A stretch of 52,334 nucleotides of DNA, taken from IMG/VR virus record IMGVR_UViG_3300021356_000025, positions 1-52,334 of that record. The stretch is one strand, 5' to 3'. This DNA is from a virus. The notes under the pieces were generated by a model. It made no database searches. It was given only the letters and a program-made list of their open reading frames with translations, and was not told the origin of the DNA. The position numbers and the translations under genes are program-made. Below are positions 16,601-52,334 of the stretch, in pieces. Position 1 is the stretch's first letter, and each line of letters starts with the position of its first letter.

Positions 16601-18775
16601 TGATGGAAGATTTATATCCCTATCCAAAGAAGATATGTCTATAAATGTAAAGGAATCACTAAACGATTTTGTCAGACTAGCAAAAGTAGAAACTTGTGTT
16701 AGTGTAGAAACTGTTTCTGTGGGAATAGTTCTTCTAAGTCCTAGGTCTTGTGCATCTAGCATGCTGAAAGTATCTGACTTTGTAGCATCGTAAGCGTAAG
16801 AAGACTCTTCAGAAATACTTAAACTTTCGTCTCTACTCACGCCATACGAAGAAAACATATTTATAGCTGTAGCAGCGCTAAAGTCGTCTGTTTTAGGCGT
16901 TGTTAAACCACGCACAGCATTTTCTGCGATAGAAGCAGAATGATCAAAGATCCTAATAAAGTCAGTAGAGGTGGTTAGAGAGTCTCCTATCCCAAAAGAC
17001 GAACCGGGGAACACGTCTCTATCTAGGTTACTTATATCCTGTATTGCAAATGAGTCTGTAAAAGATCTTGAAAGCGTAGCAAATGTGCCAACTGCAACAA
17101 GAGTGTCTATATCATCGCTAACCGTATTATAGTACTGCGGATGCGTGACAAACACTGTTTCTGCAGACACTTGCTCGGTTTTATTAAGAGTAGGCTTCAG
17201 TACTGTTGCGTCCGCTATATCAAAAGTATTTGAAACAGCCTTATCAAATGCGAGGGTTGATAGTTCAGACATTCCAAAACTATCTAAGGTTTCTTTAGTA
17301 AACAACCGAGTATCTGCATCAGATACAGATATAGAGTTAGCTACGCTTCTTTCATATATAGCAGTTAATGTAGCTTCTTCCGCTAGATTAAAGTTTTCAG
17401 TTTTACCCATGTTAAACGTTAAAGTATTAACATCGGCTATACCTAAAGAGTCACTAGCTTTTTTAACTATCCTTAATAAGGACTCATCAGATATAGCAAA
17501 ACTATCGGACGCGTCTCTAGAAAAAGCGAATCTATCTATTAGTTCAGTTAATGCAGATATACTTGCGTATTTTACAATAGACTCTATTTGTAAAAAATCA
17601 CTGAGCGCTTGAACTGCTACATGCGTATGCTCTACAGATACGGTAACTTTTTTAACCGCTGGTTCTGCCTTAACTAAAGATACATCAGCAAGTATAGTTT
17701 TATAAGTAGCAATATTTTGTATATAAGTAAAATCAACTAATGCTCTAGCATCAGACCTAATAACCGTTTCGCCGGCCTCTTGCTCTTGTTCAGCCGCTAA
17801 ATCTGCCGCTAACTCTTCGGCAGTCAAAGGCAGCATTTGTTCTAAATAATTTTCTATTTCTTCAGCAGTAGTACGTATCGAGCCGCTAGCTATAGAGCCT
17901 TGTATTAAAGATTGGCCTCTCATGCCAAAAAGATAACGTAGTATTAGGAGGCCATCGGTAAGGGCGTCAAAGTTATCATTACCATCAATGTCCAAATGAG
18001 CGGCTATATACGCTGCATTCTCTTCTACTTCTACTACACTTAAAGGGCTATCTGTCGCTATAGCCCCCCTCCACAACGGCTCTCCTCTAAGGCCAAATGC
18101 ATATCTAAGCATCATTAACCCATCGGTTAAGGCATCAGCATGACCATTGCCATCGACGTCGTAAGAAATGTGCTCTATTTCTAGCGGGTAACTTTCAGCC
18201 CTAAAAACATAACCCGCGTCTGTATGATAAGGCGTGAAGTTTAAATCGGTAGTACCTCTAGCATCCCTATCTACCGCTACGCTAAATCTAACAGTTGCTA
18301 GATGTATTGATTCAGAAGAGCTTGTTGGCCACGTACCGCCCTGTGTAGGTAGCCAGCGTGCACTTACGACTCTATCAGTATTATCATCATTGTCTATGTT
18401 ACCAAACACTGTTTCACTTCTATCAGCCATAGAAGCGTTATCAAACCCGTCAGTAAATACAGGCACTAAGCCTATAAGTGACAGTTTAGAACTATCATAG
18501 TGAAGGTTAAATCCTATGCCCGCAGTTGCACTGTTTGTAGGGGTAGTGCTGTAGCGTATCTCAATTGTTAAAAGGTCTTGGCCGACATACGCTGATGGTA
18601 AATTACTTATATCTAATATCTGAGCGGGGATATTCGGGTCGTAGACAGCCTCGCCATAGTCTAGCTTTACGCCTGTGCCTGAAACTGTATGGTAAAAATT
18701 AGTAGCGCGAGGGGTAGTGACGCTAACTAGCGCTCTCGGTTTAGAGTAGGCTCCGAGAACGGATCGATAGGTCAT
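13634..18775 (-). CDS. Giant repeat fibre protein with cohesin-like and dockerin modules, 1713 aa
   Basis: Residues about 44-200 resemble a cohesin-type beta sandwich (GIGFNLHYDSSKLSLIGL, LATVRFSVAVD). Two dockerin-like calcium-loop helices follow, DVDGNGHADALTDGLMMLRY (206-225) and DIDGNDNFDALTDGLLILRY (262-281). A helical linker (305-340) leads into more than sixty repeats of about 18-20 residues with the core DSF(G/S)(I/M)xD, from about 424 to 1640. From 571 these are organised as seven superunits of 132-135 residues (starts 571, 704, 838, 973, 1105, 1240, 1375) plus a partial one. The protein is probably a long extended tail fibre or host-surface-binding protein. Its ATG overlaps the upstream stop by one base. 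Confidence 0.8.
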   Translation of the reverse strand: MTYRSVLGAYSKPRALVSVTTPRATNFYHTVSGTGVKLDYGEAVYDPNIPAQILDISNLPSAYVGQDLLTIEIRYSTTPTNSATAGIGFNLHYDSSKLSLIGLVPVFTDGFDNASMADRSETVFGNIDNDDNTDRVVSARWLPTQGGTWPTSSSESIHLATVRFSVAVDRDARGTTDLNFTPYHTDAGYVFRAESYPLEIEHISYDVDGNGHADALTDGLMMLRYAFGLRGEPLWRGAIATDSPLSVVEVEENAAYIAAHLDIDGNDNFDALTDGLLILRYLFGMRGQSLIQGSIASGSIRTTAEEIENYLEQMLPLTAEELAADLAAEQEQEAGETVIRSDARALVDFTYIQNIATYKTILADVSLVKAEPAVKKVTVSVEHTHVAVQALSDFLQIESIVKYASISALTELIDRFAFSRDASDSFAISDESLLRIVKKASDSLGIADVNTLTFNMGKTENFNLAEEATLTAIYERSVANSISVSDADTRLFTKETLDSFGMSELSTLAFDKAVSNTFDIADATVLKPTLNKTEQVSAETVFVTHPQYYNTVSDDIDTLVAVGTFATLSRSFTDSFAIQDISNLDRDVFPGSSFGIGDSLTTSTDFIRIFDHSASIAENAVRGLTTPKTDDFSAATAINMFSSYGVSRDESLSISEESSYAYDATKSDTFSMLDAQDLGLRRTIPTETVSTLTQVSTFASLTKSFSDSFTFIDISSLDRDINLPSSFGIGDTLTTSTIFKRIFNSTYSITELLSMDFSLAAAEDTVSANINFAMFPLYSTTSSDSFGLDDSVITKMFKAADASLFSMTDAVTKRFTIPNQEQMSASEFISPFFGYTRSFSSTVDITDAALVGSNFGSTSSNTFGMADVITTSTVYNRSHDDAFSFEDPFSYKYTTPKEDSFSSDDVVTFIPVYKNIVSNSLGLDDSVFRKLFKSSEVEPVSIAETSSLLFLANKNDSIQTSVNVNTFKVFSRSLTSAISIIDFSDIDKTARPDDSFNFADVLTTSTTYNRPLSHSAPIVEHLAYSLNKSFSDSQQADEVLTVMPVYKEIISNSVSVGDLNTLSISLDKNDAVTIAESNVLSVTKNNTETLGTEVDLASFATYTRSLDSVFAMDDSVSVGNDFGAVKDNNFGMGDSASTSTTYSRPFDHPITIKEDVDKATTKAASSTFTSPEELLLMFIAASSSFSDAFSMGDSSALDLTKIVSDAASIADFSAINPTKGIVDSVAKSETLGLFKAQSRSFTDAITILDELDFSSAFGEFSNFSVVDVPTTKATYVREINNTPVTFSDAHSFEFDINTSDSLSAAAYAVVHSDYSNSQEDSFGMTESSNYTFNMGPESPFTIVEVSSKTVGKEFTDAQSTDEHFSTFKVQTLSRSDGITLADQGASISDNRDKFDSFGVGDSATTTTTFVRPISDSYSFTDQPKLDITRPVDTDTFSTEFDFKPFISYEQGINDSITILDAPEISSAGTKTDSASMSDESNYSFTRFIGTETITPSEFASIFASNKRSFTDTFAMDDTFSIDNTELGKANVFGVSDTPTLTAVYNRDFSSSFSFSDAVDYDLTKNLADSISNSENLSVFKKITLPLSSSFTILDAITSKAFTTGLTKVHLFGVNDTPTLQVSYVRKLGVSGIYSYAQEDSSFGVTDFVRVGGSLRINELQTTSVIVTSLVNYNRPLPADSFTFAETVVTTLTTGSGLASRTVNSGAINSTVIN
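14255..17065 (-). repeat. Seven protein-level superrepeats of 132-135 residues
   Basis: Each superunit begins near R-S-[FL]-[TS]-[DS] (for example SFTDSFAIQD, SFSDSFTFID, SLDSVFAMDD), has a second subunit of the type SSFGIGDSLTTST or NNFGMGDSASTST, and ends with (T/S)R or KR. Seven short subunits of about 19 residues make one superunit. The copies have diverged at DNA level, so this is an old duplication kept at protein level. Confidence 0.8.
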
Positions 18776-26100: not shown

Positions 26101-26310
26101 TGCACCTACAAGCGTTTTAGCTAACGCTTTAAAGTACTCGACATCTGCAGCCATGCCTTCTACGCCCTGCAACATTCCGTCAGAAAAAGCCTCGGACAGG
26201 GTTCTTTTGTTCTCTGTTTCAGGGGTATCCGCTGTTACGGTAGTATCAGGAACGCCGGAATCTAACACTGATTGGGTTAGTGTAGATAGATAGTCGTTAG
26301 GATCGGCCAT
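20176..26310 (-). CDS. Giant polyvalent internal virion protein with NADAR and zincin domains, 2044 aa
   Basis: Residues 100-340 are Gly/Ala-rich and partly hydrophobic, suggesting membrane insertion. Two copies of a small domain lie at about 564-604 and 747-788 (LAKGSKFKSVTVTRPDG / IAKKSKFKNIVLVTPDG). A proline-rich linker (969-996) precedes a NADAR/YbiA-like domain (about 998-1128: LSNLAYRPFQYNGYKFLSVE, HAYQTLKSGKF, TGSAEI, DRGIW). A metallopeptidase site HEFGH is at 1241-1245 with possible third ligand E1289/E1290. The last 650 residues resemble conserved phage internal proteins, with hydrophobic segments (FLQFITILPFAAIASLPEL, LSVLAITALATMPLAML). Such 'polyvalent' proteins are thought to enter the cell with the DNA and counter defences; NADAR enzymes act on ADP-ribose adducts. 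Confidence 0.75.
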   Translation of the reverse strand: MADPNDYLSTLTQSVLDSGVPDTTVTADTPETENKRTLSEAFSDGMLQGVEGMAADVEYFKALAKTLVGADEESIADNIAEARRLEESASLAVKDMDTFGEFLEQPTVTGFIEQAVKFSGQAVPSIATTVSTGGVGGVVAVLGKKGVGYTGKKIAERIGRDSIQRTIKGTATPDEKDLANSLYRTFRNGTIGGAFTAEYIPLSGSNLGEALDSGQELDKGQAARAALVGLPQATIGVAGEVAIVKLLGNIAKKRAVKESSTFGDFAKLVATNTLRTGAIEGTTEFTQEGLGILNRMDLDPTYTAEEAQLRLAEAAFGGFMGGAPVGGAGTVVATGVRKVAEAGVLDATADVMDKARRMMDEKRGKDINDTVDGEQYGDVMSGTTTPESQADINAQLKAMVDPTSTKKSVWQAGDTPALKARTNTATPVTVDGKRAFAAFIPGRGTIISTDKSIVQEVIKSRASDGALAIALGYSQSKSEVGNSDIVVQAFDVNGNVVSEEVTSQENLQEAMQNAEGLKPDGGFVNVTTLQQALETRAKKYQQEQGPDIRDADVDDSIREMNEDDLFDAIELAKGSKFKSVTVTRPDGTKVKIGLADLTAAAEKLTQGKKRSPKDVEDAPQTEVDQETDLENQENQEGVQTIEGEETVTGTYEPKADRSRVFDNTQEARDDYDATFGAQEWDTAEIGEVSESTLREAVRQQRANKNAVVSIRKNSDGKFEVVRTSFDSNLIELVDPVDKKVYRVTEAEFLDRAIKIAKKSKFKNIVLVTPDGKRIKVNLADLTRAGQRLASARGDGKFEGQTPFEAARKGLQEILTELRLEGYDVVVSGESIFDLGNQPVPDYQGSTVAAVINGKEVTLGELLSPPQTIPEQRPEAVIAEDVDSEGRPTGERVAVQSGTDEAMDAFERFQRDVMGRETSRVNEEFDPADQVQETDGRSEVDRMLDQPETVQDANRQTDRRTGRAPTTNNQAEPTQPNRSQAEPTQPNRPQAEPESEPVNIYFGTGENTILSNLAYRPFQYNGYKFLSVEHAYQTLKSGKFDQVTYDAYNRLPPARVNGRKIVGKKSANTKNGYNLDLMEKLIEASLAQNPEARQALLDTGSAEITHNQDRGIWRQEFPRIMTKIRDRLQSESSTRAEPEVVAGVEESFLVGLINNLRKAIKLKNPPRVFTYENLVNMTMGELEQQFGAENVNWILDSVNRMRQSNGNLRGMYVPLLDSGSKANLIILNESGNTLRDAAVLAHEFGHALFREEMTAATANPALRARLLRAFEKDPRYQNYLNAYDYELAFEEWYADQVARWATKKFINKQAKSLTDKHFKELAKKLKAMYREFTRTMKRRLGNTSQDFETYIEAVVDAKKKGYETAGTSANPNFVQKAMVQEVNQAVVKMGGEALADHWRGALADIARNPKLRPLMKIVRTADGIMRLHGGRKIADMFYIRSQDPDADGGLGFVGASARQIAEFQNKFEEQVGSMDDPEVQAALLEAMGDEDTDQLSPKAQQVRKFLESIYDDYIAPSNTDIGRQQNYFPTALNLMAIQENLDGFVELIMQQDPTANEAEVRKSINAVLRYNQSVADGKPIEIDGTDPAVAVEKALQLTLNVNRGSLYNAGFLHEPQDAFVQYVRHVVKRVEWNKHTKDEQGNDLLEAEMDKLSPEDKEVVQEIIATHLGYQTNPLSPMWRKVNSYGQFLQFITILPFAAIASLPELAGPVINSKEFGGLVEGLKQIPATIKNRAEARQLARDLGVVTNEIVANSWVTQAELDYMDPKVRKMSDVFFKYTALQWFTTFSREFAAGMGVKFILKHARNEFDNPRSERYLQELGLTAKEVMAWNNSGRKFTTPEGKKIKRGLQRFVESSILRPNSAERPVWASDPHWALVWQLKSYFYAYGKVIMGGIYREMVSRRKEMGGQGMPQLTATLSVLAITALATMPLAMLGMELREYTKQSLAAVLPGVETDNKYFRTDRMDWPTYLSEVIDKSGFLGIFTLGAMSHQNAKWDDKGIEGFAPDAILPFLGPTAETVDTILENGFSIDRTLKDRLIPIYNQL
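23341..23406 (-). repeat. 30-bp tandem repeat encoding QAEPTQPNR(S/P)
   Basis: Two adjacent 30-bp copies (23341-23370 and 23371-23400) differ at one base, and a third copy begins at 23401. They encode a Pro/Glu/Gln linker just before the NADAR domain. Near identity suggests recent slippage; copy number may vary between relatives. Confidence 0.9.
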
Positions 26311-26321
26311 TTAACCGCTCC

Positions 26322-28607
26322 TTATTTTTTGCCAGTAAATGGATGGCGTTGAGTCACTACTGCCCTTAAGGCATCTTCTACTTTCGCATCTAGTTTTCTA
26401 AGGTTTCCAGCTTTTATTACAGAGTCTGTACTTCTGCCATATTGGTCTGTATATTCATACCCAGTGACCTTACCTTTAGATGAGTAAACAGGTCTAACTT
26501 TTTCTATCTCGAAATCAGTTGACTGAATGCTGTCTTTGGCATTAGGTCTAAACCATGCAGCTATATTCCCAACCCAACCGGCATCGTTATCTTGGGCATA
26601 GCCAGCAACCGTAGTACTAATCAAAGCGCCAAATGCTCTTGTCCATTCGTCTCTAACTTGTGGATCTTCCGTATTACGTATTCTAGCTAACACAGTTGGT
26701 AAAAACTGTCTCACTAGGCCGTTAGAAGTGCCCTTACCGACGTAGTTTTCTTTGAAATCATCACCGAACACTACCTTGTTAACGCCTGTATAGAACGTAT
26801 CTAAGTCCTCGTTTAAGCTTTCGTACTGCCCTTCGCGCCATTGTTTAGCTTCTTGATTTAATTTTCTTACAGCTATTCTATTTTTTTCTTGGTTTATTTG
26901 ATTTGTCTGAGCTTGATTAGTAGATAAAGTAGGGTCGCCTGTAGAAAACAAGTTGTCGATACTAGATCTGATTGCTTTTCTGTTACTAGCATCAGGCTCA
27001 TTAGCGGCCAAAACTGCTCGCATCATAGCTCGGTCTTTTGTATTAGCTAATCTCGTGTCCTTTAGGTCTTTTATACCTTTCTGTCTAAGTTGTTCAGCGG
27101 CATCTTTTAGAGTCTGAGGATCTATTTTTATTTTCCCAGAATCTATTTCCTCATCAATTTGCTGATCAGACTTACCTTCCAAGTCCTTAGTTAGTTTAAC
27201 TAATCCAGCAGTTGTGTACTTAGTACCCACTTCTTCGTCAATTTGGTTTTGTATGTTCTGTGCCTCTTCCATAAGATCTCTTTCTATAAGAGCATCTCTA
27301 CGGGACTCCAAATCTCTTATCTTCTTAACAGAAGCTTTATTAGCCCTGTCAAGCACTCGGTTACGGTCTTTTTCTACCTTATCTATTTCATTATCATATT
27401 GCTCACCGCCTATCTTACCCGATGCAAATCTCTCTTTAAGGGCGGCTACTTCAGCATCAAATTCTTCCATCTGTACACCGAAGGAGCGTTTTGTTGTTGG
27501 ATCTATTAAGTTTTTATCAATGTTGGCACGCTCAATATCCCCTCTCATGGAATCAGCAGTTTTATAGAATCGCCAACCTTCATCCGCGGCAGCGAGAACA
27601 GTTTCTTCTGCTTGGGCACGGGCTCCACCCTCTTCAAACGTGGTTCTCTCGCCAACTTGTACATCTGCTATATTAGTTTGTATTTTTCGCTCAATCCCTT
27701 GACCGACCGTGTCATCTTCTGGGTCTATATCTTGCTGTACAGTGGACAGCACGTTCTGAAAATCCTCAAAAGAGGCGCCAGATGCTAAGAGGTCTAGAAC
27801 TCCGGACATTGCTTTTTGGTCGCCTGTAGCTGCCACGACGTCAATTATATCGGCTAACTGAGCGTTGGCTTCTAATCCATCTAGAGCATCTCGTTCTGTT
27901 TCTGCTGCGTTTGCATCAGCCCCCACTACATTTTGCTCTTGTACAATTCTAGTAATATTTACAGAACTTGCGTCGCCTGCTGTTTTTCTATAGCTTAAAT
28001 CTACTAGATTGGTTAGTTTCTCAGGGTCAAAAAATACAACATTATCCTGTGCATCGGCAGTTCTGTTTTCAGTTATAGCTGAGTCTACGCCTTCAGCAGT
28101 TCTTACAGTAACAGCATATCTACCAGACCCGTCTGGGGCTGGGACTATACCGGTGGCTGTAAGACCGGGGCCAAGCATTTTTTCGGCATTAGCATTTATC
28201 TGCTGTAGGCCTATATCCAAAACGGCAGCATCGCCATTTGCTATGCCTTCATTGAATTTAGCTTTATCAATACCTGTAAAATCCTTGTTAACTAGGCCAG
28301 CGGCGCTAAACAGTTCGATAGAGCTATTAGCTTTCTCTACTTTAATCTGCCTGTCTTGCACATTTTGAAGGCGGGCTTCTTCCTTCTCTTTAATAGCAGC
28401 AATCTGACTATTGTATTCTTCTGTTTTTAGATTAGAACGCTCTATTTCGGTTTGCTGCCTATCCTTGAACTGTTCTGCTTCTAAGTTAGCACGCTCTATT
28501 TCGTCTTGCTGTCTATTGCGAAACTCGTTATCCCTGCGTTGCTGATTCATGCCTTGTATAGCACTGAACCCCGCTAGAAATGCTGAACCTACATCTTGAG
28601 TAGCCAT
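26322..28607 (-). CDS. Internal virion protein, coiled-coil rich, 761 aa
   Basis: Starts MATQDVGSAFLAGFSAIQGM, then a long Glu/Arg/Gln coiled coil with near repeats (QQDEIERANLEAEQFKDR / QQTEIERSNLKTEEYN). Later parts are alpha-helical (LKERFASGKIGGEQYDNEID, LVRQFLPTVLARIRN). Position between the giant protein and two smaller Ala/Gln-rich proteins suggests an ejection protein of the T7 gp15/P22 gp16 kind by role; homology is not visible. Confidence 0.6.
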   Translation of the reverse strand: MATQDVGSAFLAGFSAIQGMNQQRRDNEFRNRQQDEIERANLEAEQFKDRQQTEIERSNLKTEEYNSQIAAIKEKEEARLQNVQDRQIKVEKANSSIELFSAAGLVNKDFTGIDKAKFNEGIANGDAAVLDIGLQQINANAEKMLGPGLTATGIVPAPDGSGRYAVTVRTAEGVDSAITENRTADAQDNVVFFDPEKLTNLVDLSYRKTAGDASSVNITRIVQEQNVVGADANAAETERDALDGLEANAQLADIIDVVAATGDQKAMSGVLDLLASGASFEDFQNVLSTVQQDIDPEDDTVGQGIERKIQTNIADVQVGERTTFEEGGARAQAEETVLAAADEGWRFYKTADSMRGDIERANIDKNLIDPTTKRSFGVQMEEFDAEVAALKERFASGKIGGEQYDNEIDKVEKDRNRVLDRANKASVKKIRDLESRRDALIERDLMEEAQNIQNQIDEEVGTKYTTAGLVKLTKDLEGKSDQQIDEEIDSGKIKIDPQTLKDAAEQLRQKGIKDLKDTRLANTKDRAMMRAVLAANEPDASNRKAIRSSIDNLFSTGDPTLSTNQAQTNQINQEKNRIAVRKLNQEAKQWREGQYESLNEDLDTFYTGVNKVVFGDDFKENYVGKGTSNGLVRQFLPTVLARIRNTEDPQVRDEWTRAFGALISTTVAGYAQDNDAGWVGNIAAWFRPNAKDSIQSTDFEIEKVRPVYSSKGKVTGYEYTDQYGRSTDSVIKAGNLRKLDAKVEDALRAVVTQRHPFTGKK

Positions 28608-30505: not shown

Positions 30506-31127
30506 ATTTCACCTTCCTATATACACCTGTATTAGCTCCGCGAGCCTGCTTCTCTGCACGCTCTACACCTTCATTAAATAACCCTGCATATACCCCAGCT
30601 GCGTTCATATCTGACCAAACAGTATTGGGCATACGAAGTAGTCTAAATAATGCACCATTTACTATAACATCTCTATAGTTATTCATCACGTCATTATCGC
30701 AACCATTGCTGGTATATGTAGGTTTTAGTACGGCTCTAACTACTATACCTTGCGTTAAGTTAGCGGCTGGAACGGGTGCTATGAAGAAAGAAGTGTTGGA
30801 CTGCTGTACATAGTACTCAGGCTGTCCAGTTTCCTCTCTCCATTTACGTATACGCTGTTCCAGTAAAGTGCTAGATATAGGTTCTAGCTCTTCACCGTCA
30901 TAGGTTACCCATTCTATTCTATGTACAGCTGTACCTGAAGGGGCATCAAAATCGTACTCGTACCTATTTGCTACAGCTGTGATAGGGTCTAGCTCTTTCC
31001 TGTAAACGCCTGACCTCTCGCATAGCTCTATAGCTGCTGCTCTAATATTAGTTTCAGCAAGAGTGTCTATACAGCCGTTAACGTGTGGTAACACGTCAGG
31101 TAGTAGCGTTTCATATGAAATCGCCAT
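30435..31127 (-). CDS. Head-tail connector / tail tubular-like protein, 230 aa
   Basis: MAISYETLLPDVLPHVNGCI, IRAAAIELCERSGVYRKEL and VHRIEWVTYDGEELEP, with later FFIAPVPAANL, follow the helix-then-beta-sandwich layout of podovirus connector and stopper proteins (compare the T7 gp11 class). It sits directly after another adaptor in the head-to-tail segment of the late operon. Confidence 0.7.
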   Translation of the reverse strand: MAISYETLLPDVLPHVNGCIDTLAETNIRAAAIELCERSGVYRKELDPITAVANRYEYDFDAPSGTAVHRIEWVTYDGEELEPISSTLLEQRIRKWREETGQPEYYVQQSNTSFFIAPVPAANLTQGIVVRAVLKPTYTSNGCDNDVMNNYRDVIVNGALFRLLRMPNTVWSDMNAAGVYAGLFNEGVERAEKQARGANTGVYRKVKYGGIQSAKSGSWQRRTRDYGNKY

Positions 31128-31138
31128 AAATCAGACCC

Positions 31139-31852
31139 CTATTGTAAGTTGGGTGGGTTGCTAGCCTCCACGTTTGGAGACGATACAGTATCTATCTGTG
31201 CTTTACCGGTTACAGATGCTGAGAATAATTGATAATGGTTGGCGGCACGTTGTTGGTTGCCAGCGTACTCAGAATCTTTCATGTATGCCATGTAAAGAAC
31301 GTAGTTCATTACTGCGTTGCCGAAAATATCTGGTACAGACAAAGCAGTGCTCCCAGTGACAGTAGTAATTACGGCTGGGTTCTTAGAGTACATGATCTCT
31401 AGGTATACAGTAGACACCGAGGACACTCCCGGATATACGTAGTAAGTTCTGGGGCTTTCTTCGTTGTATATGTAGTGCTTAACTTCACCGCCATGAGCTG
31501 CGTCGCCGCCCACAGTAGAGTCATGCCAATCGGGGGTTTGTGAATCTAGGATATCGCCGTCTACCAACCTTATAGAGCGTTTGCCATCGTACAAAGTATT
31601 GTCGTTGGCATTTTGCGTCATGTTTCTAACTACTTTGAGTAGTCTATTACCGTCAGCTGGTATGCTTTGCTTTGTGCCAGCATCTAGCGTGACTATCGCA
31701 GTATTTGACATTGCATCGGGCTTGAGTAGTGCTACTTCTCTTTGCGCATCATTGATCCACAAAACCAACTCTGTTTGAGGCCATCTAACGCCTGTAGTAT
31801 CTTGAAGTACTGCCTGCACCCTGCTTATTAGATCATTTACTAAAATAGCCAT
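31139..31852 (-). CDS. Head-tail adaptor, DUF6682-like, 237 aa
   Basis: LVNDLISRVQAVLQDTTGVR, WPQTELVLWINDAQREVALL and AGTKQSIPADGNRLLKVVRN are typical of a widespread phage adaptor family that follows the capsid gene (I recall it as DUF6682). It likely docks on the portal ring. Gene spacing of 11 bases to each neighbour fits one operon. Confidence 0.7.
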   Translation of the reverse strand: MAILVNDLISRVQAVLQDTTGVRWPQTELVLWINDAQREVALLKPDAMSNTAIVTLDAGTKQSIPADGNRLLKVVRNMTQNANDNTLYDGKRSIRLVDGDILDSQTPDWHDSTVGGDAAHGGEVKHYIYNEESPRTYYVYPGVSSVSTVYLEIMYSKNPAVITTVTGSTALSVPDIFGNAVMNYVLYMAYMKDSEYAGNQQRAANHYQLFSASVTGKAQIDTVSSPNVEASNPPNLQ

Positions 31853-31862
31853 GCTTTAACAC

Positions 31863-32249
31863 CTATAGGTTTAGTGCTGCTTCCCAAGCTGCTTCGCGCT
31901 CATCACTACGAACAGTTCGGCCTACAGCTTTGTTGACGATAGCAGCCTTTGGCGTACCATCTACTTTAAAGTCTTCTGGGTTACCCTGCTCTATTAGGTT
32001 AGCTAAGCATTCCATTAGAGCTGGATCAAATTCTTCTGTAGTCTCTTCAACTACTTCTTCAAACTCCGCATCTTCTATCTCTTGCGGAGAAACGCTATTC
32101 TCGTTATATAGCTTAGCGCCCATCTGTAGCGCAAGTGTGCCTAATTCTTCGTGGCAAGGGTTTAACTCTCTAACTACGCCAGCGTATAGTCTAAGCGCTT
32201 GACCTGATGGATGTGGTACATATAGGTCTTTGTCACTAATAATCTTCAT
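31863..32249 (-). CDS. Small acidic head-region protein, 128 aa
   Basis: N-terminus MKIISDKDLYVPHPSGQALRL (first 20: a beta start) then an acidic central stretch (IEDAEFEEVVEETTEEFDP) and a C-terminal helix. Unknown function, between decoration and adaptor genes. Its ATG is 21 bases after a TTCG-capped terminator hairpin and is preceded by AGAGGA. Confidence 0.6.
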   Translation of the reverse strand: MKIISDKDLYVPHPSGQALRLYAGVVRELNPCHEELGTLALQMGAKLYNENSVSPQEIEDAEFEEVVEETTEEFDPALMECLANLIEQGNPEDFKVDGTPKAAIVNKAVGRTVRSDEREAAWEAALNL

Positions 32250-32260
32250 GATGTGTATCC

Positions 32261-32290
32261 TCTTAAAAACTAACCCCCCGAAGGGGGTTA
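32261..32290 (-). terminator. TTCG-tetraloop terminator after the decoration gene
   Basis: On the minus strand TAACCCCC-TTCG-GGGGGTTA (perfect 8-bp stem, 32271-32290) is followed by GTTTTTAAG. A stable UUCG-capped hairpin plus T run is a typical rho-independent terminator. It would cut most transcripts after the capsid and decoration genes. Confidence 0.8.
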
Positions 32291-32294
32291 TAAA

Positions 32295-32708
32295 TTACGC
32301 TGCTACTAAAACACTTAGTTTGATTGTGCCAGATGTAGCGCCTGTAGCTGGGGCTGTTGCGACTTTTAAGTCTATAGAGCCGTCAGCTGCAAAGGTTACA
32401 GGCTTAACTAGTAAGTTAGATGTTCCGCCTGCTTGACCCAAATTACTGTCATCTAGGAACAGGTCAGTATCGCCGTCTGTACCCAAGTCAAGTGTAATTG
32501 CTGGAGAGCCGTTGGTGTCTAAGTCGGGAACTTCCAAGAAGTAACCCAATACTGTTTCACCTTTGTTTATGTTTACTAGCTGAACAATGTCATTAGCCGC
32601 AAGAGCAGCTGAGATAGTGTATTCGCCAGCTCTAACACCTACATCCCCTTGCGGGAATGGGATGTATCCCATGTCATTAGCCACGGAATCTGATTTGAAT
32701 GTAGCCAT
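32295..32708 (-). CDS. Probable capsid decoration protein, 137 aa
   Basis: Small, acidic, Gly/Ala/Thr-rich, all-beta protein (GVRAGEYTISAALAANDIVQ, AITLDLGTDGDTDLFLDD, GTIKLSVLVAA) encoded directly after the major capsid gene. This matches the size and character of phage capsid decoration or head-fibre proteins. It is flanked by a hairpin on each side, suggesting separate expression. Confidence 0.65.
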   Translation of the reverse strand: MATFKSDSVANDMGYIPFPQGDVGVRAGEYTISAALAANDIVQLVNINKGETVLGYFLEVPDLDTNGSPAITLDLGTDGDTDLFLDDSNLGQAGGTSNLLVKPVTFAADGSIDLKVATAPATGATSGTIKLSVLVAA

Positions 32709-32727
32709 TTCTATATCTCCCGAAGAA

Positions 32728-32747
32728 ACCCCCTCCTAAGAGGGGGT
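32728..32747 (-). terminator. Hairpin between capsid and decoration genes
   Basis: ACCCCCT (32728-32734) pairs with AGGGGGT (32741-32747), 6-base loop; only TTTC follows on the minus strand. Probably a leaky terminator or an RNA-stability hairpin at the end of the capsid message. Confidence 0.6.
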
Positions 32748-32757
32748 ATAAGGTTTA

Positions 32758-33879
32758 TTAAGACTGTAGAGTATCTAAGCAGATAACGCCGAAGTCTTGT
32801 ACAGAGCCACTTGCGTCGCTGTTGTACTTAGGCTTACGTAGACCGAAGATCTTACCTACAGAAATACCTGACTGGTTACCGTAGTCGAAAGTATCTTCAA
32901 CCATTTCAGGTAGACCGATGTCAGCCATAGCAAGAGCTTGAGCACCACAGAATAGAGCACGACCGCCGTTCTCAGTACCGGTTGCGCCCCACTTAGAGCC
33001 AGAAGCAGCACCAGAAGTGTTGTATACGTGACGGAACTCATGAACGATAACGCCATCAACCATTACGCTTGAAGAACCAGCGAACAATGCGTTGCTTGCG
33101 CCACGAACGCCAGCGTTACGAACGTTTTGAATGAAGTCGTCATCCATTTTGAGGTCAGCCATTTGCTGTGGAGTAACGAACATGTGGAACACTTCTTCGC
33201 CTGCACCAGCACGGATACCACGAATGTAGCGATCTTTAGCTTTAGCTTTCAAGCTAATGATAGCTTTGTAAGTTAACTTAACGTGACCGTTAGTAGTAGT
33301 GTCACCAGCAGCTAGCTCATTGCTAGTTTTTAGTTTGAAGTGACGATCAGAACTTGGACCAGATACGTCTGAAGCAAACTCAAGATCAGCAAGATCGTGA
33401 CCAGCGCTTGCAGAAGCAGCACGTAGCGTACCGTTGTTTTTGTAAGTGTAAGCAACGCCTGAAAGGGTCAAGAACGCTAGTTGGTCAATACGGTCAGCCA
33501 TTGCATAAGCAAGAGCGTCACGAGATTGCTCACGGAAGTTAACAACAGTTTTTTGGTCAGCCATGCGGCCAGCAATTCTGTTAGCAAAACGTAGTTGATC
33601 TAACTGAATGCTGATGTCATAGGCGCGTAGCGCTTCTTCGTTGCCTTCTAGAGTGTTATCACCAGTGATACCGTCTCCAGTCATGTCAGCAAGCAAAGTG
33701 ATGTTAGCTTTTGTGCCTTTAGCTGATTTAGTAAGCTCAGTAATACGCTGAACCATAGCGTTTGAGCCAGTTCCAGCGAACTGATTGATGAAAGATTGGT
33801 TACGAGCAACTTTCCAGAAGTCACGTGACCATGCTTGTAGTTGGTCGCCTGTTAGCGTACCGAAATTAGTTAAAGCCAT
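32758..33879 (-). CDS. Major capsid protein (DUF4043 / N4-gp56-like)
   Basis: 373 aa. The start is the ATG at 33879, preceded by a perfect AAGGAGG; an in-frame ATG 14 codons upstream lacks support. MALTNFGTLTGDQLQAWSRD, FINQFAGTGSNAMVQRITEL and EQSRDALAYAMADRIDQLAF are family hallmarks I recall for N4-gp56/DUF4043 capsid proteins. It forms the icosahedral shell. It is preceded by a long structured leader and its own promoter candidate, consistent with very high expression. Confidence 0.9.
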   Translation of the reverse strand: MALTNFGTLTGDQLQAWSRDFWKVARNQSFINQFAGTGSNAMVQRITELTKSAKGTKANITLLADMTGDGITGDNTLEGNEEALRAYDISIQLDQLRFANRIAGRMADQKTVVNFREQSRDALAYAMADRIDQLAFLTLSGVAYTYKNNGTLRAASASAGHDLADLEFASDVSGPSSDRHFKLKTSNELAAGDTTTNGHVKLTYKAIISLKAKAKDRYIRGIRAGAGEEVFHMFVTPQQMADLKMDDDFIQNVRNAGVRGASNALFAGSSSVMVDGVIVHEFRHVYNTSGAASGSKWGATGTENGGRALFCGAQALAMADIGLPEMVEDTFDYGNQSGISVGKIFGLRKPKYNSDASGSVQDFGVICLDTLQS

Positions 33880-41859: not shown

Positions 41860-42399
41860 TTATCCCTCTGGTTCTAAATAAGTAGTGTCTTTACCCGCTA
41901 TTTCTAGCAGCTCTTCGTCTGTTAGTCGCTCTAGCTGTTTTGCTGTAGCGTTTAGGTTGACATTTACCTGTACTGCATTATCTGGGGCAGTTAAACCATG
42001 TAATTTAACCAGAGAATCCACCGTATTTTTCATTTCGGTGGCTGTAGCAGAGGAATTATACGCCTCCATGTACATAGCATGCGCGTTTGTGCGTTCGAAC
42101 TTTACTTCTTCGCGCATTTGTTCTCTAAAATACTGTAACGCAGTCTGGACATCTGGCTTTTTGGAGGCTTCAAGCGCTGTTTTGTAGCTTGCATAGCCTG
42201 CACCACGACCAGCTGCCGCGATTGTCATGCCACTAGCGATCAACATCACTAGTTTTTCTTGCTGTACTGTTAACGCACTAAGCGAAAGTCCCATGTAAGG
42301 TACATGAGACTGGAATTCTGTCCTAGCAGATACAGCATTAGTGGACGATTCTGAGACCGCCTCGTCGTTTTTCACTAAGTTCACCGCCAAGTTCTTCAT
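41860..42399 (-). CDS. terS: Terminase small subunit
   Basis: 179 aa. LTVQQEKLVMLIASGMTIAA then AGRGAGYASYKTALEASKKP is a helix-turn-helix typical of TerS DNA-binding domains; a central helix pair (EQMREEVKFERTNAHAMYME) forms the oligomer core, and GLTAPDNAVQVNVNLN...RLTDEELLEIAG is a C-terminal motif common in this class. It recognises the packaging start and loads TerL. No clear ribosome site; its start lies in the end of the preceding gene. Confidence 0.8.
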   Translation of the reverse strand: MKNLAVNLVKNDEAVSESSTNAVSARTEFQSHVPYMGLSLSALTVQQEKLVMLIASGMTIAAAGRGAGYASYKTALEASKKPDVQTALQYFREQMREEVKFERTNAHAMYMEAYNSSATATEMKNTVDSLVKLHGLTAPDNAVQVNVNLNATAKQLERLTDEELLEIAGKDTTYLEPEG

Positions 42400-43922: not shown

Positions 43923-44200
43923 TGTGCCACCTGTGCCACCTTGTGCCACTTTCTGTGCCACCTTACAGATAGAGCTAACATATTGATTTAGTTAGATTTT
44001 ATCTGCAAAACAAAGGCTTGTGCCACTTGTGCCATGTTTTTTCCTATATAGTATATACAGGTATTAAAAAAACAGTGATTTTACTTTTCCATAAACGAAT
44101 TTGAAAAGGTGGCACAACTGGCACATTTAACTCTAGCCCTTGTAGTTACTGGAAAAATGGTGGCACGAAACATGGCACAGTATCTGGCACAACTGGCACG
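43923..44200. other. Putative replication origin: two opposed arrays of six short iterons around an A/T-rich core
   Basis: Left array, plus orientation: TGTGCCAC at 43923, 43932, 43942, 43954 and 44019, and TGTGCCAT at 44028. Right array, opposite orientation ((G/C/A)TGGCAC(A/G)): 44109, 44118, 44160, 44172, 44184 and 44193. Most steps are 9-12 bases, about one helical turn. The 73-bp core between them (44036-44108) is A/T-rich (CCTATATAGTATATACAGG, TATTAAAAAAACAG) and could unwind. A DnaA box follows at 44300. The layout resembles iteron origins; the initiator is not identified. No convincing gene lies in 43695-44411. Confidence 0.7.
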
Positions 44201-44262
44201 AAACTTAAGACTTTACTTTAACATTGACCGCTAACCACGGATAACGGACAACTATCAAAGAA

Positions 44263-44289
44263 GCGTGGCCGGCAATGGCCAGCACACGC
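44263..44289. other. Hairpin between iterons and DnaA box
   Basis: GCGTG (44263-44267) pairs with CACGC (44285-44289), with an inner GGCC/GGCC pairing. It could be a single-strand initiation or primer-forming hairpin near the origin; inference only. Confidence 0.45.
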
Positions 44290-44299
44290 TAGTTGCTAT

Positions 44300-44308
44300 T
44301 TATCCACA
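44300..44308 (+). promoter_or_regulatory. Perfect DnaA box TTATCCACA
   Basis: Exact match to the bacterial DnaA consensus TTATNCACA, 100 bases right of the last iteron. The phage origin may recruit the host initiator. A single box could occur by chance, but the position beside the iterons makes it meaningful. Confidence 0.6.
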
Positions 44309-45146: not shown

Positions 45147-45325
45147 GTTTTGTTCCATTAAACCTTGACCGTGAACACTGGGAAATGATCGCTAACAACG
45201 ATGAACCAACTCCCAGTCTGAATCACTTTGAAATGATGTATCAGATGATGCAACTTGCTGGCGAGCATGCAGAGGACTGCACAAACGCACAACTTTCTAC
45301 TAAACAATTATTGGAGGATTTCTAA
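45143..45325 (+). CDS. Small acidic protein, 60 aa
   Basis: ATG preceded by GGAGG and overlapping the upstream stop (ATGA). MSFVPLNLDREHWEMIANND then HFEMMYQMMQLAGEHAED. Helical, acidic; not recognised. The next gene's ATG follows two bases after its stop. Confidence 0.6.
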   Translation: MSFVPLNLDREHWEMIANNDEPTPSLNHFEMMYQMMQLAGEHAEDCTNAQLSTKQLLEDF

Positions 45326-45326
45326 A

Positions 45327-45929
45327 ATGCGTAATTCATTTATCGAAACTGCGTTGCAACAAATCAGTGAGTATCGTGGCTACAAAGGTGAAGTAGCTAA
45401 ACACATCATGTCGTTCAACACTGGCGACCTTGAGACTGACTTCGAAGAAGCATTCATTGCGTCTGCTACTGACGAGACGTCGTATCACCCGCTAGCCATC
45501 ATCGGCTTTCACCAGACGCTGATGGACAAAGTTTGCTGGAACGCTCGCAAGCTTTGGAACGCTCAGAACGAAGAGTCACCAGTGTACGGTGTCGAGACAG
45601 CTGAGCGCACTGCAGAGATTGTAGGTGTTGAGACTAACACTGACGTCAAAGAAGTAGTTGATCTTGACTATCAGAACTTGTTTCAGTCGCATGCATCGCT
45701 TGCTCAAGAGATGAGTGCAGAGGTTGATATCGCTAACCTTTACTACTTCTCGCCAACCAGTCTTGATGAGCAGACTGGCGAATGGCAACCACAATGTACT
45801 TGTGAGTCATTCGACGAAGCGTTTACGGAGATGAACAACATCACCGAGCAACTCGACGCGCAACAGAAAGACACGTTGCGAGCCAAGTTTGCAGAGAAAC
45901 GCAAGGCTCGTGAGAAAGCTGTAGCTTAA
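45327..45929 (+). CDS. Hypothetical protein, 200 aa
   Basis: Start fixed by GGAGGATTTCTAAA before the ATG. MRNSFIETALQQISEYRGYK, DLETDFEEAFIASATDETSY, HQTLMDKVCWNARKLWN, and a C-terminal coiled helix (ITEQLDAQQKDTLRAKFAEK). Codon use is more C/G-rich in wobble positions than that of nearby genes. No family recognised; followed by a strong terminator. Confidence 0.7.
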   Translation: MRNSFIETALQQISEYRGYKGEVAKHIMSFNTGDLETDFEEAFIASATDETSYHPLAIIGFHQTLMDKVCWNARKLWNAQNEESPVYGVETAERTAEIVGVETNTDVKEVVDLDYQNLFQSHASLAQEMSAEVDIANLYYFSPTSLDEQTGEWQPQCTCESFDEAFTEMNNITEQLDAQQKDTLRAKFAEKRKAREKAVA

Positions 45930-48647: not shown

Positions 48648-48875
48648 ATGAAGAACTGGACCTATGTAGATCTTATTGAGTATTCCGCAGGCTTTTACCT
48701 AGTTGCCGGTATGCCTCAAGACTGGGATGGCATGGACGACGGACAACTGTTCATAGGACTTGAAGATAGAGCGTGGCAACCGCTCGAAAACAAGGATGGC
48801 GAATATATCTGGGAGCAGATAGAAACAACGGCTAGAAGCCTAAATGAAACTTTTGAACTTGGAGTAAACATATGA
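48648..48875 (+). CDS. Hypothetical protein, 75 aa
   Basis: MKNWTYVDLIEYSAGFYLVA then WDGMDDGQLFIGLEDRAW, acidic and aromatic-rich. Overlaps the MoxR gene by four bases (ATGA), so it is the first member of that translational group and may be a partner. Confidence 0.6.
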   Translation: MKNWTYVDLIEYSAGFYLVAGMPQDWDGMDDGQLFIGLEDRAWQPLENKDGEYIWEQIETTARSLNETFELGVNI

Positions 48876-49870
48876 GAACGATTCGACCTAGCCATCTATT
48901 CGATGAGCTAAAAGCAAATGGCCTTGCCAAAGTGAACAGCTGTATACACGCTGGTCCCGGCGAGGGTAAGTCACAACTCGTGTATCAATTCGCAGAAAGT
49001 ATCGGAGCAAAGATGTATGAGCTCCGTGCCAACCTCTTCGATCCTGTTGATGTACGTGGTGGATTGAAAGTTGTAGAGATGGAAGACGGTACATACAAGA
49101 CACGTTACGGTGTGCCTGAAGATTATCCGCCATCAGACTACGAAGGTACAGTTGTATTGTTTATCGATGAGATAACAAACGCACCGAAAGCAACACAGAA
49201 CGCCCTGCTGCAGTTGTTGCTTGACGACAAGATTGGTACATATCATCTACCGAAGAACACAATCAAGATTGCAGCTGGCAACCGTGCTCAAGACCGTGCC
49301 GCTGTCCATGAGATGCCAACACCTGTCAAAAACAGATTTGCTCACTACACATTGGAAGCAAACATTGATGACTGGGTACAGTGGGCATTGAAGAATGACA
49401 TCGATGAATCACTGATTGCATTCTTACGTTACAGACCAATGCTGCTCAGCGCAGTTGATTCCAAAGAGAACGCATTCCCAACACCCCGTGCATGGGAGAT
49501 GCTTAATCGCAAACTACCATTTATCAAAGATGACTTCTACGGTTGCGCATCATTGATTGGTGACGGACCAGCTGGTGAGTACATTGCATTCAAATCAATC
49601 TACAAAGAAGTACCTGACATCGATGCATTAATCAAGAGCCCAAGTACAACCAAGGTTCCAGAGAATGCATCAGTACTGTATGCAATTGCTGGTGCACTTG
49701 CATCACGAGTTACTGATAAGAACTTCGATGCAATCATGAAGTATGTAAGACGCATGCCTGCAGAGTATCAAGTAGTTATCATCAGAGACTGCATGGCTAA
49801 AGACAAAGGGTTGATGTCACAACCCGCATTTACTAAATGGACGCAAGACAACGCGTCAGTATTATTATAG
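48872..49870 (+). CDS. MoxR-type AAA+ ATPase, 332 aa
   Basis: Walker A GPGEGKSQ (28-35), Walker B VVLFIDE (94-100) followed by ITNAPKATQNALLQLLLDD, and sensor-1 region IKIAAGNRAQDRA. RGGLKV and FPTPRAWEM are further MoxR-like features. MoxR proteins remodel partners together with VWA-domain proteins; the VWA protein is encoded two genes later. The system may refold or disassemble a host or phage complex. Confidence 0.85.
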   Translation: MRTIRPSHLFDELKANGLAKVNSCIHAGPGEGKSQLVYQFAESIGAKMYELRANLFDPVDVRGGLKVVEMEDGTYKTRYGVPEDYPPSDYEGTVVLFIDEITNAPKATQNALLQLLLDDKIGTYHLPKNTIKIAAGNRAQDRAAVHEMPTPVKNRFAHYTLEANIDDWVQWALKNDIDESLIAFLRYRPMLLSAVDSKENAFPTPRAWEMLNRKLPFIKDDFYGCASLIGDGPAGEYIAFKSIYKEVPDIDALIKSPSTTKVPENASVLYAIAGALASRVTDKNFDAIMKYVRRMPAEYQVVIIRDCMAKDKGLMSQPAFTKWTQDNASVLL

Positions 49871-49881
49871 GAGGAAGCATC

Positions 49882-50607
49882 ATGGCTTCAGTAAGACTAT
49901 CGCATGAGTTACGTAATGAAATACGTAGAAACGCTATGGAAGCATTTGAAACTGCTAACCCAAAGTGGAAAGCAGACAATGGATTCCAAACCAAAATAAA
50001 GTATGCCATACAAAATTCTAAATGGCAGAACTTTGCTGAAACACTAAACGGTATGATTCAGAACGAACAACAAACAAGAGACACTAACCAGTTCGGTCTA
50101 GAACGTATCAAGGTTGATAGTACTAGAATCAATCACATAACACTAACTCGTAACAAAACACAGGAAGATCGTGACAACGAATTAGGCCATCCAAGATCTG
50201 ATACAGTAGAGCTCGAGATCGAACTCGATGCTGCATTTGAAGCATGGTCTAAGGAAGGTATGTACGGTGGTTGTTCAACAACAGTTGACATTGAGTCTTT
50301 GACAGATGAAGACAGACTAGAGATCAACGACTTGATGACACAAGCTAAAGTATTTCAGAAGGAACTGAGAGACAAAGAAGACAAGTATCAAACATCAATT
50401 GTAAATCTACTCGACAACTGTAACACGCTCAAGCAACTGCTGGAGTCGTGGCCTGCAGCTGAGTCTTTGATTCCACAAAGCAAGATAGAGTTGATGCACA
50501 AGAAAGTAACACGTTCAGCAGCAGCTAAGCAACGACGCGAAGCAGTTGAGTTTGATTCAGACGAGATAAACCAAACGGTACTTACAGCCAAACTAGTTGG
50601 AGGCTAA
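49882..50607 (+). CDS. Unknown protein within the MoxR-VWA triad, 241 aa
   Basis: Start fixed by AGGAGGAAGCATC before the ATG. MASVRLSHELRNEIRRNAME, then HITLTRNKTQEDRDNELGHP and a long helix DEDRLEINDLMTQAKVFQKE; basic C-terminus (TRSAAAKQRREAVEF). Alpha-rich. Its fixed place between the ATPase and the VWA protein suggests it is the adaptor or the substrate. No family recognised. Confidence 0.65.
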   Translation: MASVRLSHELRNEIRRNAMEAFETANPKWKADNGFQTKIKYAIQNSKWQNFAETLNGMIQNEQQTRDTNQFGLERIKVDSTRINHITLTRNKTQEDRDNELGHPRSDTVELEIELDAAFEAWSKEGMYGGCSTTVDIESLTDEDRLEINDLMTQAKVFQKELRDKEDKYQTSIVNLLDNCNTLKQLLESWPAAESLIPQSKIELMHKKVTRSAAAKQRREAVEFDSDEINQTVLTAKLVGG

Positions 50608-50608
50608 C

Positions 50609-51742
50609 ATGTCTGCAGAAAATGCAATGGTAAAAGCACGAAGCAACTTGCTAATGGACCACCCGTTCTTTGGCACGTTGTCATTGAAGCTCAAGCTTGT
50701 GCTCGACAATGAGCAACCTACCGCTGCAACAGATGGCAAACGTCTAGTCTACAACGAAGACTTTGTAATGAAACAAAGTCCACAAGAGCTTCGTGGTCTC
50801 ATCGGCCACGAGGTTCTACACTGTACAGGTTGTCACCACACACGCCGTGGTGAGCGTGATCCCAAGCTTTGGAACATGGCTTGTGATTACATTATCAATC
50901 AGATCTGTAAGAAAAGCGGATTGATACTACCAGACGGTGCATTGTTGGATGACAAGTACGATGATACATGGACGCCTGAAGCTGTCTACAATGACTTACA
51001 AGACAGACAAAGCGAAGACGAAAAGCTACCTGAATGTGGTTGGGGCTTGGTAATGGACGCTGACAACGGATCACTAACCAAGGAAAGCAATGCACAGCAA
51101 GAGGCTGACTGGCAGATTGCAGTAACACAAGCGGCTGAGATAGCTAAGTCGCAAGGCAAACTACCCGGGCATCTCGAGCAATTCATTCAAGACATTGTAG
51201 AACCAAAGGTAAATTGGTTGACAGTACTTTGGCCTTTCTTTACAGACTTGCGTAAAGATGACTACACATGGGCTAAACCACACAGAGCTTATATATCGGA
51301 GGACGAGTACTTACCATCGTGCCACAGTGAAGGCTGTGGGAAAGTCGGTATCATATTCGACACAAGTGGTAGTACACACAGGGATCAACAACAATTCGTT
51401 GGCGAACTAAACGCAATCATCAACGATGTGCAGCCGTCGTCTGTTGTTGTAGTGCACTGTGACTATGTAGTTCAACAAACATTCGAACTAGAGCAAGGCG
51501 ACGAACTTGGAGAAGAGCATCAAAACTTGAAAGGACAAGGTGGTACACAGGTTACACCAGCTTTCAAATACATCCGCGAAGAACATCCGGATGTGGAAGC
51601 ACTTGTGTACTTAACGGATTTGGAAACCGATATGCAAGATTTCATTAACGCAGAGGAAGAAGTTATATGCCCTGTATTATGGATCAGCACAGAAAGGAAT
51701 GTCGAAGCACCGTTCGGGGAGACAGTATATTTGACAGACTAG
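50609..51742 (+). CDS. Metallopeptidase-VWA protein (DUF2201-like), 377 aa
   Basis: Start fixed by GGAGGCTAAC before the ATG. GLIGHEVLHCTGCHH contains HEVLH (67-71), a zincin site, followed by LWNMACDYIINQI as in the putative metallopeptidase domain of DUF2201 proteins. The C-terminal half is a VWA-like domain with MIDAS motif DTSGS (251-255) and YLTDLETD. In bacteria such proteins pair with MoxR ATPases, as here. Peptidase activity is not proven for the family. Confidence 0.85.
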   Translation: MSAENAMVKARSNLLMDHPFFGTLSLKLKLVLDNEQPTAATDGKRLVYNEDFVMKQSPQELRGLIGHEVLHCTGCHHTRRGERDPKLWNMACDYIINQICKKSGLILPDGALLDDKYDDTWTPEAVYNDLQDRQSEDEKLPECGWGLVMDADNGSLTKESNAQQEADWQIAVTQAAEIAKSQGKLPGHLEQFIQDIVEPKVNWLTVLWPFFTDLRKDDYTWAKPHRAYISEDEYLPSCHSEGCGKVGIIFDTSGSTHRDQQQFVGELNAIINDVQPSSVVVVHCDYVVQQTFELEQGDELGEEHQNLKGQGGTQVTPAFKYIREEHPDVEALVYLTDLETDMQDFINAEEEVICPVLWISTERNVEAPFGETVYLTD

Positions 51743-52172: not shown

Positions 52173-52322
52173 ATGTTAGACATAATTATAGGCACAACTT
52201 TGTTTATAGGATTTATGTATGTAGCGTACGAAGGCTGGCAAGAACTTAGAGACAAGCAGGCTGCTTGGGAAAAAAGAAAAGTAAAGAAACTCAGGAAGAA
52301 AACTTATGTCCTCCGAGACTGA
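52173..52322 (+). CDS. Small membrane-anchored protein, 49 aa
   Basis: GTGAGGGCATT precedes the ATG, seven bases after the DUF3310 stop. One N-terminal transmembrane helix (MLDIIIGTTLFIGFMYVAYE) and a very basic tail. Unknown. Confidence 0.6.
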   Translation: MLDIIIGTTLFIGFMYVAYEGWQELRDKQAAWEKRKVKKLRKKTYVLRD

Positions 52323-52334
52323 CATTGTTACACT
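52306..52334 (+). CDS. Possible start of next gene, cut by window edge
   Basis: ATG at 52306 with GGAAG ten bases upstream, reading MSSETDIVT to the window end and overlapping the previous gene by 17 bases. Too short to judge. Confidence 0.3.

Follow-up and report, generated by a model that had tools for sequence, protein, structure and literature searches.

A two-armed iteron array as the very probable replication origin of an uncultured phage, with a repeat word that apparently changes together with the DNA-reading end of the phage helicase

The replication origins of PICIs consist of an A/T-rich region flanked by two sets of iterons (PMC6092414, legend to Figure 2), and it is the C-terminal domain of the PICI/SaPI initiator that recognises the iterons (PMC7581432). 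As cited in PMC4234260, satellite phage P4 uses the winged helix of its alpha protein to bind repeats in its origin. For pRN1-type proteins, a stem-loop has been proposed to serve in origin finding (PMC4234260). In the case of phage NrS-1, whose priming motif is TTTGGTTA (PMC8718748), the candidate origin, located at the genome centre, was guessed solely from two 8-nt priming recognition sites (PMC7102993). How SF3 PrimPol-helicases find their origins was left open in this earlier work (PMC4234260, PMC7102993).

Here, we analyzed a 52,334 bp stretch of DNA of an uncultured phage (IMG/VR record IMGVR_UViG_3300021356_000025), referred to as the window, which gave no match in a megablast search against phages. 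According to the initial annotation, it contains twelve iterons in two opposed arms, and relocating the repeats in the sequence confirmed this for the region 43923-44199. The outer left arm (43923-43961, plus strand) contains four TGTGCCAC iterons starting at positions 43923, 43932, 43942 and 43954, and is followed by an inner left pair, TGTGCCAC/TGTGCCAT (44019-44035, plus strand), whose starts at 44019 and 44028 are 9 bp apart. The inner right pair (44109-44125, minus strand; starts 44109 and 44118) has the same 9-bp spacing in the opposite orientation, and the outer right arm (44160-44199, minus strand) contains another four iterons, starting at 44160, 44172, 44184 and 44193. All six left-arm copies read TGTGCCA on the plus strand, and the six right-arm copies read (G/C/A)TGGCAC. 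The start-to-start steps are 9, 10, 12, 65 and 9 bp on the left and 9, 42, 12, 12 and 9 bp on the right, and the actual pattern is therefore four plus two iterons, a core, and two plus four iterons. The core, which is the presumed melting site, spans 73 bp (44036-44108), as annotated, and is 75-78% A/T. In the whole window, TGTGCCA was observed 16 times versus 6.3 expected; the surplus falls entirely within the array, and the 6 copies outside it correspond to chance level. Opposed 6-mer clusters contained at most 7 copies in 20 shuffles of the window (12-13 observed), and when the local 800 bp were shuffled 2000 times, the most frequent 7-mer had at most 5 copies, versus 10 for TGTGCCA.

The array is located where the late and early genes diverge, with the late genes running leftward from 43.2 kb and the early genes rightward from 44.3 kb. 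The late block encodes an endonuclease VII/HNH-like protein, a terminase small-subunit-like protein, the terminase large subunit and a P22-type portal. Both ends of the window are open; the related locus L003, which is 98-99% identical to both, bridges them across about 2.2 kb (L003:1796-4053). This bridging shows a genome of about 54.6 kb that is circular or circularly permuted. The missing segment holds most of the gene for a family A DNA polymerase (606 aa, L003:1796-3616), of which the window retains the first bases (52306-52334, plus strand) and which is presumably the elongating polymerase, as well as the putative PrimPol N-terminus of the protein described next. The window also contains, in a row at 48872-51742, genes for a MoxR-like ATPase, an Nmad5-like protein and a DUF2201 protein (metallopeptidase/VWA); the MoxR and DUF2201 genes are kept in many relatives.

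The annotation saw no initiator from a known Rep family in the window. This was wrong: the gene at 58-2283 (plus strand) encodes a PrimPol-like SF3 helicase that ends in a winged helix. Its frame is open to position 1 of the window, which cuts the N-terminus, and reads ESRAGK..LLVLDVDG, similar to PrimPol motif I. The start of the complete gene lies beyond the window (L003:3828), and the gene encodes 837 aa in relative L005; the full-length frame contains the motif-I-like LVLDVDG and an SLH motif, without a Pfam AEP match. Domain models, profiles and structure matches all place the protein among the SF3/D5-like AAA+ helicases: region 58-2283 matches DUF5906 (3.6e-19), VapE-like (1.2e-5) and phage primase families, and the profile match to the NrS-1 primase chain is 7e-36. 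The best PDB match of the AlphaFold model (pLDDT 76) is the C-terminal region of NrS-1 polymerase (6k9c; Z 25, residues 274-715), followed at Z 13-14 by vaccinia D5, mpox E5 and the SaPI5 primase-helicase (7om0, 13.8). Residues 655-718 (2020-2211, plus strand) form a basic winged-helix DNA-binding domain (pI 11.2), with its wing at residues 691-714 (2128-2199, plus strand) and Arg710 near the end of the wing. The AF2 model of the last 141 residues alone (pLDDT 90) supports this fold, the domain on its own matching NrS-1 residues 617-718 (Z 7.7) and then winged-helix proteins (Z about 4). In the L117 contig (G025), stop codons and changes of frame appear to break up the helicase gene (30890-33105).

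The initial annotation had described the array as differing from the usual origin. This stands with respect to one-direction plasmid iterons, but not with respect to PICIs, for which two sets flanking an A/T-rich region have been published (PMC6092414); since opposed iteron sets are already known for these satellite islands, the architecture is not new. Like PICI/SaPI origins, the array has iteron sets on both sides of an A/T-rich region and goes with an SF3 primase-helicase. However, a PICI origin lies directly downstream of its initiator gene, whereas this array lies about 10.3 kb upstream of the initiator gene start (measured via L003), so that it would work like a PICI replicon but is not one. 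The window moreover belongs to a full phage with its own polymerase A, and close relatives in its phage group carry different words. At the level of the initiator, the system also resembles P4 alpha, a primase-helicase whose winged helix acts on origin repeats, although the P4 primase is of the TOPRIM type (PMC4234260).

Comparison with relatives provides good support for the origin role. Using a k-mer scan, we found two-armed clusters in 109 loci, corresponding to about 51 non-redundant origins in which position and architecture are kept; none of 91 shuffled loci (1.49 Mb in total) passed the same scan. Most of the 46 scored origins have inner pairs spaced at 9 bp, the core has a median length of 74 bp and a mean A/T content of 70%, and one of the outer gaps often holds a lone iteron of the opposite orientation. 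Only few relatives were recovered with the word TGTGCCA itself, because the word changes: about 20 words occur among the two-armed origins, including TGTGTGCCA, TGTGTGCAG, TGTGTGACG, GGTGAGACA, TGTGTAGCA, TTCGTGCCA and TGTTCCA. Conservation of the repeats in relatives, on which the initial annotation had made the origin role depend, thus holds for the layout but not for the word, which is swapped even in a relative (L004) whose helicase is 82% identical and whose array, with the word TGTGTACCA, is unchanged in layout and place. The layout rather than the word is the conserved feature. In three loci with sufficient upstream DNA the scan gave no clear origin cluster, no two-armed cluster was found in phiA008 and ZP6, and hardly any new loci came from two further scans in which the MoxR alignments had been re-centred.

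A scan of NrS-1 (L281, AB746912) yielded one cluster, of 14 ACACTT/AAGTGT copies with the word GGTTACACTT, at 17065-17440 (array 17062-17440). This array contains a 9-bp pair (17256/17265), an A/T core and inverted copies (17357/17369), and the priming motif TTTGGTTA, which occurs once in NrS-1, lies within it at 17198. We found no description of the array in the literature searched, a search that did not include the original PNAS paper. NrS-1 resembles the window's phage in having an A/T core with opposed iterons on its two sides and in combining an SF3 helicase and a C-terminal domain in one protein, with an N-terminus that in the window's phage is presumably primase-like too. NrS-1 is the best structural match over residues 274-715 and for the C-terminal domain on its own; it differs in its word and in that the array adjoins the primase gene, lying directly downstream of it (PrimPol, 14895-17051). 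The Pseudomonas phage KPP25 (Kochitakasuvirus; L192, AB910393) encodes a helicase that is 32% identical over 93%, and its late/early layout matches. At 26472-26611 it contains a TGTTACGA pair, an A/T core and a TCGTAACA/TCGTGACA pair, but the repeats are fewer and more degenerate, and an unbiased scan did not rank them above chance. By eye, degenerate TGTTACGA/TCGTAACA pairs on both sides of an A/T-rich core can be seen where they would be expected, at 26385-26690 within the intergenic region 26218-26895, and the same region contains three direct repeats of about 49 bp.

Two other signals add little to the origin case. The DnaA box reported by the annotation, TTATCCACA (44300-44308, plus strand), is present and is the single match to TTATNCACA in the window. 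Besides the window, however, such a box lies near the arms in one freshwater clade and a few others; because it is absent there in most relatives, we rejected it as a core origin element and consider it a clade-specific accessory at most. With its opposed arms, the array also falls outside the DnaA-dependent iteron plasmid origins, which combine one-direction iterons with conserved DnaA boxes. Cumulative GC skew, suggested as a check, indeed has its minimum at 44-45 kb, but this minimum tracks gene direction and is confounded. When measured at third positions and controlled for strand, the skew of the window shifts at roughly 19 kb, but five relatives compared with it did not show this consistently, and bidirectional replication is not consistently supported; GC skew was therefore set aside as origin evidence.

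Taken together, the array is very probably the replication origin of this uncultured phage, as far as sequence comparison goes. We further consider it probable that in this 54.6-kb phage with a P22-type portal, the phage's own PrimPol-SF3 helicase binds the iterons and melts the core, after which PrimPol primes and the family A polymerase elongates. We infer the steps, from iteron binding, hexamer loading and melting to the direction of replication and all other biochemistry, as follows. The helicase would bind the iterons with the winged helix at its C-terminus, whose wing would read the 3' half of the word, the part that varies. The opposed arms may seat two hexamers face to face across the A/T-rich core, which these would melt; the PrimPol domain would then prime, the phage family A polymerase would elongate, and replication would run outward from 44.07 kb.

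Covariation provides information on which protein reads the word. For 29 phages with both helicase and origin, word distance was compared with the helicase column by column, taking into account how far the helicases differ overall. Among 644 variable columns, the top 20-column stretch corresponds to residues 696-717, i.e., the wing (score 0.124), with a permutation P of 0.007 for the helicase maximum (0.003 without relative L007), although the phylogeny is only partly accounted for when taxa are permuted. Of the 18 phages with words ending in CA, 17 have Arg at residue 710 (the exception has Asn), whereas none of the 10 with other endings does; this rule was picked after the data had been seen. 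Arg710 and the CA ending each change five times on the tree. On well-supported branches there are only four independent word changes (three agree, none disagree, p 0.25), which leaves the tree-based sign test powerless. The 20-column maxima of the controls MoxR, DUF2201, PolA, TerS, TerL and exonuclease (0.05-0.11) are below that of the wing, those of PolA (0.095) and TerS (0.108) not far below. From these sequence data, the word and the part of the helicase that reads DNA have apparently changed together.

One other protein, gp45255 (45255-45929, plus strand), exceeds the wing's score and covaries with the word about as strongly as the helicase (maximum column r 0.45-0.61, P 0.002-0.02); when the comparison is restricted to the 22 taxa with gp45255, residues 497-524 become the top-scoring helicase stretch. 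This origin-adjacent protein may be a partner or a hitch-hiker. It is conceivable, though unlikely, that the array is an origin whose iterons are bound by another phage protein such as gp45255, which then recruits the SF3 helicase. The position of its gene, about 1 kb from the arms, and its covariation would fit this. In phage L007/L172 (IMGVR_UViG_3300020188_000036), the helicase is nearest to the window clade, while the word and gp45255 resemble a freshwater clade; its gp45255 thus tracks the clade sharing its word (45-49% identity, versus 34%), which the helicase does not. However, this pattern is explained by co-transfer of neighbouring DNA: L007 possibly received its origin together with gp45255 from another clade, and this seeming transfer accounts for part of the gp45255 covariation. 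In addition, gp45255 is acidic (pI 4.5-4.7), matched no Pfam or PHROG family and could be recognised in no more than 22 of the 29 phages, and the close SF3 precedents bind their origins themselves. Direct binding by the helicase is the reading we prefer.

It is quite improbable that the array is instead the operator of a regulator and not an origin. Being located between divergent transcription units, opposed arms could control both directions, but promoter-like sites show no surplus (3 versus 2.8 in shuffles), and twelve copies with 9-bp tandem pairs and an A/T core of about 74 bp look more like iteron origins. Moreover, the covariation of the word points to the replication helicase, and the NrS-1 array stands downstream of a PrimPol gene. 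A packaging (pac) site read by the small terminase is hardly credible, even though a small-terminase-like gene (41860-42399) lies about 1.7 kb away and terS also adjoins the NrS-1 array, as the best 20 columns of TerS score close to the PolA control and below the wing, and opposed arms with an A/T core between them do not resemble the pac sites described to date.

What is new is a PrimPol-SF3 phage origin of fixed layout whose word changes rapidly and appears to follow the wing of the initiator. Some 50 natural variants of the origin share one layout with different words, and 29 of them are paired with their helicase, which makes initiator specificity directly testable; KPP25 and NrS-1 are cultured phages in which this can be done. 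We regard the chances as even that an origin with two opposed iteron arms is common to the PrimPol-SF3 phages, among them NrS-1, and that its 9-bp word evolves fast together with the initiator wing (Arg710 going with CA, Ser/Thr with CAG or ACG). This would amount to a natural code of recognition and would give one phage group many origins that are incompatible with one another.
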